A stretch of 64,000 nucleotides of DNA from Fluviicola sp. (lineage in GTDB: Bacteria; Bacteroidota; Bacteroidia; Flavobacteriales_D; Crocinitomicaceae), in contig NVXU02000020.1 in the NCBI GenBank assembly GCA_002734065.2, forward strand, positions 62,001 to 126,000, given 5' to 3'. Under the pieces are notes generated by a model, which had not been told where the DNA came from, searched no databases, and saw nothing but the letters and a program-made list of their open reading frames with translations. A program made the translations under genes and the position numbers. Shown piece after piece: positions 13,454 through 29,079 of the stretch; position 1 is the first letter of the stretch; each line of letters opens with the position of its first letter.

Positions 13454-13489
13454 ATTTTTCGCAAAATTCAATTGAATTTTGCGAAAAAT
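13454..13489. repeat. Perfect 36-bp palindrome
   Basis: Arms TTTTTCGCAAAATT and AATTTTGCGAAAAA flank CAATTG, with one more A/T pair at the ends. The same 14-bp arms occur inside psd at 26502-26535. There is no following T run, so a simple terminator role is not supported. Confidence 0.9.
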
Positions 13490-26660: not shown

Positions 26661-27182
26661 TCACTTTTTATAGCCCATCTTTTTTCGCTTCGTTTTTTTC
26701 TCAACGAATTGATTTAAATAATTGAATATTTTCTCAATTTTTTCATCCTGTGAATTTGTTTTTTGTTTGATGTCTTCAATTTCTGAAAGTAATTCTTGAT
26801 GCTCAGATAAAACCGCTTTCATTTTTGTAAACAATCTTATTATTTGAATATTAACAATGATTGCGTCTTTGCTGTTTAATACACTAGACAACATTGCAAC
26901 TCCTTGTTCGGTGAAAGCCATGGGTGAATATCTTAATCCCATTTTGTCTCCTAAATTGGAGGTCACAATTTGTGACCTCCAATTATTGAACTCTTCTTTT
27001 GTTAACTCAAACATGAAATCATTCGGAAAACGGTAAATATTTCTTCTGACTGCTTGCTTTAATACTTTCGTTTCTACGCCATACAATTCTGCTAAATCTC
27101 TATCAATCATCACTTTTTGATCTCTGACAGTGTAGATTTTGGTCATTATTTGTTCTTGGAGAACGTTTGCTTCTTTATTCAT
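26661..27182 (-). CDS. ORF6N domain protein, copy 1
   Basis: 173 aa. The N-terminal ORF6N domain (about residues 10-110) has IYTVRDQKVMIDRDLAELYGVETKVLKQAVRRN and YSPMAFTEQGVAMLSSVL. A C-terminal coiled-coil-like part (LSEIEDIKQKTNSQDEKIEKIF) follows. ORF6N domains occur in phage antirepressors and in chromosomal copies in Bacteroidota, where they are thought to bind DNA or regulate; the role here is unknown. It is the intact downstream member of three minus-strand paralogues. The codons for WRSQIVTS lie in a 31-bp palindrome (26954-26984). Confidence 0.9.
   Translation of the reverse strand: MNKEANVLQEQIMTKIYTVRDQKVMIDRDLAELYGVETKVLKQAVRRNIYRFPNDFMFELTKEEFNNWRSQIVTSNLGDKMGLRYSPMAFTEQGVAMLSSVLNSKDAIIVNIQIIRLFTKMKAVLSEHQELLSEIEDIKQKTNSQDEKIEKIFNYLNQFVEKKTKRKKMGYKK
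26954..26984. repeat. 31-bp palindrome within ORF6N copy 1
   Basis: AATTGGAGGTCACAA and its exact reverse complement flank one base. It encodes part of the conserved WRSQIVTSN segment. Confidence 0.9.
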
Positions 27183-27279: not shown

Positions 27280-27788
27280 TCACTTTTTATACCCCACTTT
27301 TTCTCTCTTCATTTTTTGCTCAACGAATTGGTTTAAATAATTGAATATTTGCTCAATTTTTTCATCCTGTGAATTTGCTTTTTGTTTGATGTCTTCAATT
27401 TCTGAAAGCAATTCTTGATGTTCAGATAAAACCGCTTTCATTTTTGTAAAAAGGCGTATTATTTGAATATTTACCGCAATTGCTCGATCACTTTTAAGCA
27501 CGCTTGACAACATGGCAACACCTTGTTCTGTGAAAGCCATGGTAAGATATCTGTTGCCTCCGTAACTTGAGGTCGCAATTTGCGACCTCAAGTTACGGAG
27601 GCAACTGTTAATTCAAACATAAAATCATTCGGAAACCGTTTGATATTTCTTTTGACAGACTCTTTTAGTCTTTTCGTTTCTGCGCCATACAATTCTGCTA
27701 AATCTCTATCAATCATCACTTTTTGACCTCTGATAGTATAGATTTTGGTCATTATTTGTTCAGGGAGAACGGTTGTTTCTTTATTCAT
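27280..27788 (-). pseudogene. ORF6N domain gene copy 2, broken at a 53-bp palindrome
   Basis: The first part (27788-27588) reads MNKETTVLPEQIMTKIYTIRGQKVMIDRD through FPNDFMFELT and then VASVT and a stop. The second part (27591-27280) resumes at RSQIATSSYGGNRYLTMAFTEQGVAML in another frame and ends like the other copies. Relative to copy 3, the 26 bases that encode KEEFYNLR are replaced by 22 bases that are the reverse complement of the downstream LRSQ-TSSYGGN region, giving a net change of -4 and a frameshift. Both halves might be made as separate peptides, since the second part has a TTG at the junction, but a loss of function is more likely. Confidence 0.85.
27553..27605. repeat. Perfect 53-bp palindrome at the break in ORF6N copy 2
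   Basis: Two 26-bp arms (GTTGCCTCCGTAACTTGAGG...) flank one base. The inner 15-bp arms correspond to the palindromes of copies 1 and 3; the outer 11 bp are unique to this copy. Confidence 0.95.
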
Positions 27789-27981: not shown

Positions 27982-28494
27982 TCATTTTCTTTTTGATACC
28001 TGACGTAAATAGACTAAGAGAAAAAGGACTGCTAAGGAGAAAAAGACATAGAATAAGCCTTCCTTTAACGGTTTGAATTCTCTGTCAATGTAGGAGTTTT
28101 TACTTGCTGTAGCTGTGATTTCTTTTACATGAATCTCACAGTCAAATTGGTCTTTTGAATTAATTGAAAAATTAAATTTGTAACTGTTAGGTAAAGCTTT
28201 AAAGCTGGCTACTTCTTTATGACTAGAGTCTAAAATTTTTTCTTCAGTTGTGTTGAGAAAATCTAGCATTGGTGTTGAGGAAAAAGAATAGCATAAATTG
28301 TTCGTCGTGTCCACTAAAGAAAGTTCAATTGTGTACACTCCTTGATAGTTGACATCAAGAGGAAAGACAGCACCATCATAAAGCTTGAAATTAGAATTGT
28401 ACGTCACAATATTTTTATGAATAGTTGAAAAGGCCCCTCTATAAAACACAATACTGAGAGTTAAGAAGACAAGAGTTAAAACTTTGGCAACCAT
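27982..28494 (-). CDS. Hypothetical membrane-anchored protein, 170 aa
   Basis: A hydrophobic N-terminal segment (about 3-22), a soluble beta-rich middle of about 110 residues with Cys residues, and a C-terminal membrane segment (LFYVFFSLAVLFLLVYLRQV) suggest two membrane passes with an external domain. No family is recognised. It lies between ORF6N copies 2 and 3 on the same strand. A TATATTTG box on the minus strand (28527-28534) may be its -7 element. It may be cargo of the ORF6N repeat unit; that is inference. Confidence 0.7.
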   Translation of the reverse strand: MVAKVLTLVFLTLSIVFYRGAFSTIHKNIVTYNSNFKLYDGAVFPLDVNYQGVYTIELSLVDTTNNLCYSFSSTPMLDFLNTTEEKILDSSHKEVASFKALPNSYKFNFSINSKDQFDCEIHVKEITATASKNSYIDREFKPLKEGLFYVFFSLAVLFLLVYLRQVSKRK

Positions 28495-28566: not shown

Positions 28567-29079
28567 TCACTTTCTATAACCCATCTCTTTTCTCTTCGTT
28601 TTTTTCTCAACGAATTGATTTAAATAATTGAATATTTGCTCAATTTTTTCATCCTGTGAATTTGTTTTTTGCTTGATGGTTTCAATTTCTGAAAGTAATT
28701 CTTGATGCTCAGAAAGTACAGCTTTCATTTTTGTGAAAAGTCGAATTATTTGAATATTAACGATGATTGCTTCTTTGCTGTTTAATACACTAGACAACAT
28801 GGCAACACCTTGTTCTGTGAAAGCCATGGGGAGATATCTATTGCCTCCGTAACTTGAGGTCACAATTTGTGACCTCAAGTTGTAAAACTCTTCTTTTGTT
28901 AACTCAAACATAAAATCTTTCGGAAAACGGTAAATATTTCTTCTGACCGCTTGCTTTAATACTTTCGTTTCTACGCCATACAATTCTGCTAGATCTCTAT
29001 CAATCATCACTTTTTGACCTCTGATAGTATAGATTTTGGTCATTATTTGTTCAGGGAGAACGGTTGTTTCTTTATTCAT
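28567..29079 (-). CDS. ORF6N domain protein, copy 3
   Basis: 170 aa, intact. It shares the architecture of copy 1: MNKETTVLPEQIMTKIYTIRGQKVMIDRDLAELYGVETKVLKQAVRRN, then LRSQIVTSSYGGNRYLPMAFTEQGVAML, and a coiled-coil-like tail. Its first 40 residues match copy 2 almost exactly, while the middle part matches copy 1, which suggests exchange among the copies. The leader before the start (TAAGTTAAGAAAAT) is also shared among copies. The LRSQIVTS codons form a 31-bp palindrome (28851-28881). Confidence 0.9.
   Translation of the reverse strand: MNKETTVLPEQIMTKIYTIRGQKVMIDRDLAELYGVETKVLKQAVRRNIYRFPKDFMFELTKEEFYNLRSQIVTSSYGGNRYLPMAFTEQGVAMLSSVLNSKEAIIVNIQIIRLFTKMKAVLSEHQELLSEIETIKQKTNSQDEKIEQIFNYLNQFVEKKTKRKEMGYRK
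28851..28881. repeat. 31-bp palindrome within ORF6N copy 3
   Basis: AACTTGAGGTCACAA and its exact reverse complement flank one base. Compared with copy 1 it differs at two positions in each arm, and both changes are matched in the other arm. Confidence 0.9.

Follow-up and report, generated by a model that had tools for sequence, protein, structure and literature searches.

The purR gene of E. coli is autoregulated by operators located downstream of its promoter, and this repressor resembles the ORF6N proteins, as proposed here, in acting at sites within its own transcription unit. PurR differs in belonging to the LacI family and in having many other targets, and we know of no covarying in-gene site for it. 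Also to our knowledge, few targets have been described for ORF6N, KilA-N, and Bro-N proteins. Quasipalindrome template-switch mutations constitute a known mutation class (PMC7202029, PMC8794818).

For autorepression by roadblock, the nearest precedent appears by analogy to be C.Kpn2I, the controller protein of the Kpn2I restriction-modification system, which according to the cited text has its binding site in its own coding region and forms an elongation roadblock (PMC6237814). The same text suggests that promoter-independent autoregulation may be widespread and that it suits horizontal transfer (PMC6237814). The ORF6N site is likewise located inside the gene's own coding region, in wing codons, and covariation points to its binding. 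C.Kpn2I, as described in that text, is close to XRE, belongs to a restriction-modification system, and has its motif at or near the gene start (PMC6237814), whereas ORF6N is another domain family with a site in wing codons, widely changing arms, and a residue–base code extending over several phyla. The in-gene site is the feature shared with C.Kpn2I-like systems, and neither the XRE/C-protein family nor restriction-modification neighbors are found: all 60 aligned members match ORF6N, with no XRE-type family among the 14 listed, and none of the five neighboring frames scanned beside the copies matches a restriction-modification family.

Mycobacteriophage immunity repressors stop elongation at stoperators within the phage genome, and their specificities diverge; the passages cited describe a monomer that binds an asymmetric site and has many sites genome-wide (PMC9283540), whereas the ORF6N site is symmetric and lies in the own gene. 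Comparable to the ORF6N palindromes are the perfect inverted repeats of up to 284 bp that are kept in the coding sequence of several genes in Nematomorpha mitochondria, for which the abstract names no link to DNA binding (PMC6649704). Among the papers listed by searches of a literature that mostly lies outside the subscription journals, none deals with palindromes inside ORF6N, KilA-N, or Bro-N genes. The only text pairing ORF6N with "palindrom-" was a Fusobacterium phage gene list, in the available part of which the word comes from the name of CRISPR.

Three ORF6N copies and the enlarged palindrome of copy 2

The window, which is the whole 64-kb stretch of DNA analyzed, contains three ORF6N copies. 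Copy 1 (26661–27182, minus strand) and copy 3 (28567–29079, minus strand) are open, encode 173 and 170 amino acids, and both have V40/Q43. They score 123.1 and 128.1 bits with the ORF6N profile PF10543 (cut-off 27.8) and are members of this family, and they stay below the cut-off of the Rha profile PF09669 (22.3 and 21.9 bits; cut-off 29.9). The fragments of copy 2 reach 79.6 and 28.5 bits with PF10543, against the same cut-off of 27.8. Four of the five neighboring frames match Pfam families (biotin carboxylase, DUF983, phosphatidylserine decarboxylase, and H+ pyrophosphatase) and one is without a match. In addition, a 170-aa open frame without a Pfam match is located between copies 2 and 3 (27982–28494, minus strand), and a TTCTTAACTTAAA-like stretch, possibly a promoter or leader element, precedes the start codons of copies 1–3 and of the distant copy L004.

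The preliminary description had assigned a common inner palindrome of 15 bp to all three copies. Instead, copies 1 and 3 contain perfect palindromes of 31 bp, one with AATTGGAGGTCACAA arms (26954–26984, centered at 26969) and the other with AACTTGAGGTCACAA arms (28851–28881, centered at 28866). Both sit at the same codons as the palindrome of copy 2, and their arm sequences differ. With perfect arms of at least 9 nt, only four palindromes are present in the window (53, 36, 31, and 31 bp), the one in copy 2 being the longest. The second longest, a perfect even palindrome of 36 bp at 13454–13489, lies between open frames and could be a terminator.

The palindrome of copy 2 is perfect, odd, and 53 bp long (27553–27605, minus strand, centered at 27579), and it is located exactly where the frame is lost, both as originally reported: in gene sense the frame reads ...FELTVASVT and then meets a stop. 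The truncated open frame (27588–27788, minus strand) comprises 66 codons plus the stop and retains the predicted helix-turn-helix (K39, R40, E43), while the wing and the C-terminal helices are gone. The out-of-frame rest (27280–27591, minus strand) is open up to the original stop. Since this remainder is still open, the event looks recent.

Alignment of the copies, together with the sequence itself, reveals an 11-base block (27595–27605, minus strand) in place of 15 bases of the open form. Base by base, the block is the exact reverse complement of 27553–27563, the outer right arm. The preliminary description was right about the exact reverse complement and the net loss of four bases but not about the size, which it had given as 26 bases replaced by 22; the other 11 bases of that larger block are common to copies 2 and 3. 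Its proposal that the palindrome grew outward by 11 bp with a −4 frameshift fits the alignment of the three copies, and template switching at the stem still explains the block and the frameshift most simply. Across an existing inverted repeat, the new bases reproduce their neighbor exactly as its reverse complement, as expected for a quasipalindrome template switch, and the arm extension with frameshift is of that kind. Copy 2 differs from other quasipalindrome mutations in that the hot spot itself is conserved and is probably a protein-binding site. A polymerase extending the left arm would have copied the right arm through the stem, thereby lengthening the palindrome by 11 bp, losing 4 bases net, and breaking the gene. 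The outermost base of the block matches a base that is unique to the right arm of copy 2 (GGCAAC, where copy 3 has GGCAAT) and absent in copies 1 and 3, and the template was therefore most likely copy 2's own right arm. A later insertion of the KEEF segment was considered and rejected, because E63, a residue encoded in the replaced block, shows at least 90% conservation across an alignment of 60 sequences; the open form of copy 2 is very probably ancestral.

An assembly error at the palindrome would provide a different origin for the copy 2 form, given that long perfect palindromes are difficult for short-read assembly. We consider such an error unlikely, as the edges of the 11-base block are exact, its outer base is the one found only in the copy 2 right arm among the three copies, and the remaining frame is intact.

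The 27-bp core of the copy 2 site (27566–27592), delimited by per-position pairing across the family, has 13-bp arms with G at position 4 (TCGCAA) and corresponds to the family-conserved part. The extension falls outside these 13-bp half-sites, and the retained core still matches the helix residues of the gene; copy 2 obeys the residue–base code described below (R40/E43, G4). Judged by these comparisons, the copy 2 palindrome is a one-off enlargement of a site that almost all ORF6N genes examined contain. We rejected a programmed or recurring switch: among 266 sites with at least 10 of 12 pairs, a ranking that covers the sites scored before the held-out set, the perfect arms of copy 2 measure 26 nt and the next longest 19 and 17 nt. 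In-frame stops also occur in the ORF6N copies L015, L034, and L082, so decay of such copies is not rare.

Pairing and the residue–base code in ORF6N genes

ORF6N genes were collected from relatives and the phylum, from named genome contigs (the best 80 of 588 matches), and from 55 viral contigs. The contig records include Bacteroidota, Chlorobiota, Desulfobacterota-type, Margulisbacteria, Elusimicrobia, Omnitrophota, Acidobacteria-type, and candidate phyla. Two genome surveys detected ORF6N genes in 117 of 395 and 162 of 395 genomes, and such genes were also detected in 21 plasmid and 5 phage records. Regions were taken at 100 places from the first genome sample and 80 from the second, which are a part of the matches, roughly best-scoring first. 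Nine gap rows and any edge or duplicate rows were left out of the initial site alignment, as were 20 rows from the site-offset search (no anchor column, or at the edge).

With centers allowed anywhere in an 85-position stretch of wing codons, at least 9 of 12 pairs were found in 287 of 298 ORF6N sites, compared with 8.8% of synonymous shuffles, and 11 sites had no such palindrome in this wide search. Over 22 positions the count was 278 of 298 (shuffles 7.3%); nine of the 20 sites falling below the threshold in this narrow search have a palindrome further 3' in the wide one. At least 10 of 12 pairs were found in the narrow search in 142/159, 74/84, and 50/55 rows of the respective sources. For the 160 representatives, which share less than 75% identity and have no stop in the peptide, pairing averages 10.57 of 12, versus 6.75 in synonymous shuffles; 139 of them have at least 10 pairs, a level reached in ~2% of shuffle draws. 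Taken one by one, 141 pair better than their respective shuffles with p ≤ 0.05, and 124 do so with p ≤ 0.005. The arms vary among the genes yet stay complementary, and the position of the site shifts from gene to gene (0, −2, +12, −3, −6, and others).

Pairing is 0.81–1.00 at positions 2–13, 0.59 at positions 14–15, and 0.07–0.44 beyond, with a mean of about a quarter; the rows of this profile were chosen at 10 or more of 12 pairs, which biases positions 1–12 upward and leaves 13 and beyond unbiased. Position 1 pairs in 0.73, and the very center of the palindrome is therefore free. One subfamily translates this DNA (GGTCACAAATTGTGACC) in a different frame, as LVTNCDRL in place of LRSQIVTSS, and this comparison of genes shows the palindrome to be frame-independent. 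The palindrome lies in codons of the predicted flexible wing of the ORF6N protein.

Covariation between protein columns and palindrome bases was computed for 278 sites (effective number 188), with the 20 of 298 rows below 9 of 12 pairs left out. Outside the palindrome codons, the strongest couplings link residue 43 with positions 4 and 5, residue 40 with position 4, residue 39 with position 7, residue 81 with position 10, and residue 82 with position 8. In copy 3, codons 39–44 (28948–28965, minus strand) encode the recognition helix predicted from covariation and the structure model, and codons 81–82 (28834–28839, minus strand) encode the end of the wing predicted from covariation. At these 278 sites, residue 43 accompanies position 4 as Q with A in 114/118, E with G in 83/86, R with C in 38/46, and K with C in 19/19 cases. 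Moreover, K39 goes with G7 in 167/170, R81 with G10 in 186/189, K81 with A10 in 36/38, and Y82 with G8 in 121/130. If any palindrome of the wing is allowed, the residue 43 rule holds in 121/124 (Q–A), 87/88 (E–G), 39/47 (R–C), and 19/19 (K–C), R43 fitting less well than the other residues.

The rules were also followed in a held-out set of 102 new sites, of which 100 were scored and two had fewer than 9 of 12 pairs; two rows without an anchor and nine loci from the Rha search were left out. The counts for residue 43 are 46/47 (Q–A4), 32/33 (E–G4), 16/18 (R–C4), and 1/1 (K–C4), and those for the other residues are 66/67 (K39–G7), 81/82 (R81–G10), 10/10 (K81–A10), and 54/57 (Y82–G8). As G7, G10, and G8 are common anyway among the 100 sites (73, 88, and 58), residue 43 and K81 carry most of the weight. 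In genes read in the other frame, the residue 43 rule holds in 13 of 17, and in four genes of this group with R43 it is followed by the right half-site only. This comparison of aligned genes shows a residue–base code and covariation of the arms, and it indicates that each ORF6N protein recognizes a site inside its own gene.

The genome of the window contains five ORF6N genes in six profile matches, all with the palindrome and with five different arm sequences. The palindrome is perfect in four of them and has one mismatch within the inner 13 pairs in L003. Read by eye, the five genes fit the code at positions 4, 7, 8, and 10 in 20 of 20 cases. A switch of residue and base occurs at close range inside this one genome, where copy 2 has R40/E43 with G4 and copies 1 and 3 have V40/Q43 with A4. 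In the genus sample, 6 of 33 genomes have an ORF6N match.

Three genes (L071, L077, and L132) have two wing palindromes of different position-4 type. In each, the gene's residue 43 agrees with the 3' palindrome but not with the one at 5', and the three genes correspond to three exceptions to the code (two E with A, one Q with C). Two palindromes 36–42 nt apart within one wing were observed in these genes and in L122, L101, and L153.

A tree was built from 252 of the 278 rows with the trait columns left out. Changes of residue and base on it number 40 and 41 for E/Q at residue 43, 34 and 35 for R or K versus Q, 42 and 31 for residue 39, 28 and 27 for R/K at residue 81, and 50 and 40 for residue 82, all of them inflated by many unsupported branches. 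Well-supported branches provide 5, 1, 4, 4, and 5 independent pairs, respectively. Among these the base follows the residue in a mean of 4.5, 1.0, 3.6, 4.0, and 2.4, and the opposite never occurs; no sign test on these branches is significant with so few pairs (median p 0.125 for 43 E/Q).

The copy 3 model, computed from a 60-sequence alignment (mean pLDDT 83), predicts helices at residues 26–33 and 37–46, a strand at 56–58, a short helix at 61–65, a strand at 84–86, and a long helix at 101–141 that could be a coiled coil. The palindrome codons (about 67–77) mostly fall within a predicted low-confidence loop (residues 71–80, mean pLDDT 56) of this helix-turn-helix fold. A sequence search of the PDB (E up to 1) found no relative, and Foldseek no match to the model at E ≤ 0.001. 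Set against winged helix-turn-helix regulators of the MerR, MarR, and KilA-N/APSES kinds, fold matches of the model are weak (VIA Z 6.6, Ski-like; RacA 5.6; MerR-type 5.3; Mbp1 4.2). Positions 4–7 on opposite arms are ~11 bp apart, or one DNA turn, a spacing that would suit a homodimer with a pair of recognition helices.

Candidate operator and competing explanations

We read the palindrome as an operator of the ORF6N protein inside its own coding sequence, recognized by residues 39, 40, 43, 81, and 82, and put the probability of this reading at roughly four in five. The homodimer would set its two recognition helices (residues 39, 40, and 43), about one turn apart, on positions 4–7 of the half-sites, while the wing ends (residues 81–82) would read positions 8 and 10. 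Because the site lies in codons of the flexible wing, the encoded peptide would be tolerated. In this way, a segment of ~130 bp would hold both the reader and the site that it reads. Physical binding of the site by the protein is what the covariation suggests.

The palindrome could instead act as an mRNA hairpin in attenuation, as an RNase target, or in translational control, with covariation keeping the RNA stem. The calculated folds of −24.0 (copy 3), −23.2 (copy 1), and −49.7 kcal/mol (copy 2), with z of −6.6, −5.1, and −14.8, respectively, are in line with this possibility, and the pair adjoining the center is often unpaired, as in a loop. The mismatches, however, are not those of RNA. Positions 3–11 of 152 of the 160 representatives provide 1368 cells, of which 1258 are Watson–Crick, 15 G–T, 33 A–C, and 62 others, although an RNA stem should favor G–U (binomial p 0.013 for 15 against 33). 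A hairpin also leaves the prediction of bases by residues 39, 40, 43, 81, and 82 unexplained. Since G–U pairs are rare, a hairpin is improbable and was rejected as the main cause; the RNA hairpins are stable, and some RNA effect may remain.

About equally improbable is a neutral, self-perpetuating palindrome, in which arm-to-arm template switching repairs an ancient functionless inverted repeat. The mutation in copy 2 takes just this form, and template switching is described in the cited part of one report as creating and maintaining stems (PMC8794818). The sharp drop in pairing from positions 2–13 to 14–15 and then to about a quarter argues against neutrality, as does the prediction of bases by distant residues. 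Template switching may nevertheless be how both arms change together.

Rickettsia palindromic elements are mobile palindromes that insert into coding genes, and a mobile element of this kind would agree with the shifting position of the site, the tandem palindromes in some wings, and the arrays of varied palindromes that follow some ORF6N genes. It would not account for the prediction of the site by the gene's own residues, and for the core type searched, neither the window's genome nor six further genomes have insertions in many unrelated genes. In the window's genome (3.49 Mb), the GGTCACAANTTGTGACC core turns up in four ORF6N genes and nowhere else when up to two mismatches are allowed, and a related core pattern is confined to ORF6N loci in the six other genomes. 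We thus regard a mobile element as still less probable, and for this core type a dispersed REP-like element was likewise rejected. As the GGTCACAANTTGTGACC-type core occurs only at ORF6N loci in the genomes searched, nothing points to a wider regulon of this type. The least probable explanation, a protein constraint under which the LRSQ-I-VTSS motif is merely encoded by near-palindromic codons, draws on the L-R/K-S-Q-x-x-T-S common to many members at the site and is contradicted by the synonymous shuffles, by the subfamily that encodes LVTNCDRL from the same DNA, and by arms whose two sides change together while the encoded amino acids differ (TSS, TSN, TLE, ASN).

Further ORF6N-type palindromes flank the genes. 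Upstream, 27 second palindromes were found in 26 of 183 genes at −360 to −230 of the in-gene center, which is likely the promoter region, and only five in the further 520 nt upstream. Downstream, at +300 to +530, there are 16 in 7 of 174 genes, in arrays of up to four different types. These flank palindromes fit the code of the gene's own protein no better than chance (upstream 14/27, p 0.085; downstream 8/16, p 0.56), which does not bear out a reading of the upstream ones as second operators; simple autoregulation leaves the flank palindromes unexplained. Other ORF6N proteins may use them as operators, or they may be relics. The second upstream palindrome is often of another specificity than the gene's own. 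Two to four different palindromes follow the ORF6N stop codon in L231, L044, L222, L060, L203, and L025, and some pieces of these arrays resemble wing codons of other genes. L231, L222, and L203 are Flavobacterium records in which apparent polysaccharide genes, named by eye, adjoin.

Related families and possible roles

KilA-N and Bro-N loci were fetched as negative controls and came out positive, so window tiles, locus edges, and TetR_N loci were used instead. Palindromes with at least 11 of 12 pairs in the middle 400 nt are present in 15/30 KilA-N and 15/30 Bro-N loci, compared with 17/23 and 16/28 for ORF6N by the same measure; the negatives give 1/153 (window tiles), 6/258 (locus edges), and 4/30 (TetR_N, the highest of them). 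KilA-N sites center on GAATTC within the motif NPxFKPVEFD, and their arms covary. When viral loci (the best 80 of 121 matches) are included, 76 of 77 distinct KilA-N sites have at least 9 of 12 pairs, and the top couplings, computed on a single small set (effective number 68), involve residues 42, 45, and 46, 26–30 residues upstream. For Bro-N the corresponding values are 58 of 61 sites and residues 46, 50, and 75 (effective number 48, likewise a single small set). Covarying in-gene palindromes were observed in the KilA-N loci L425–L454 and L516–L595 and the Bro-N loci L455–L484 and L596–L650, a few of the palindromes lying away from the shared site (L425, L456, and L457). In addition, dinD of E. 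coli K-12 (L485:5761-6585) has a 10/12 palindrome, the best of the gene (the next scores are 9), at the position that corresponds to a perfect palindrome in some Bacteroidota DinD-type genes. The Rha control search gave one clear gene (L325), in which no odd palindrome of at least 10 of 12 pairs was found, and eight weaker places that overlap or resemble ORF6N genes.

As to the role of the candidate operator, promoter-independent autorepression is most likely, by analogy with C.Kpn2I: the bound protein would block RNA polymerase within its own gene. A role as an immunity group, or as a guard against cross-talk between paralogues, is possible. Tentatively, ORF6N, KilA-N, and Bro-N genes might form a superfamily of self-addressed genes, each with a wing-codon operator read by its own protein through a residue–base code. 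A shared address would then define an immunity group, in which a resident copy silences an incomer of the same address. Rare addresses would escape, leading to repeated specificity switches, and old addresses would persist as fossil palindromes in the wing and in flanking arrays.

If the operator reading is true, the target of each regulator would be readable from its own gene, and specificity would be predictable from four or five residues. Natural covariation would thereby yield a DNA-recognition code and explain a widespread coding palindrome, and the genes would represent ready-made orthogonal repressor–operator pairs. It would also make testable the question of why a regulator keeps its target in its own gene and changes both together so often.
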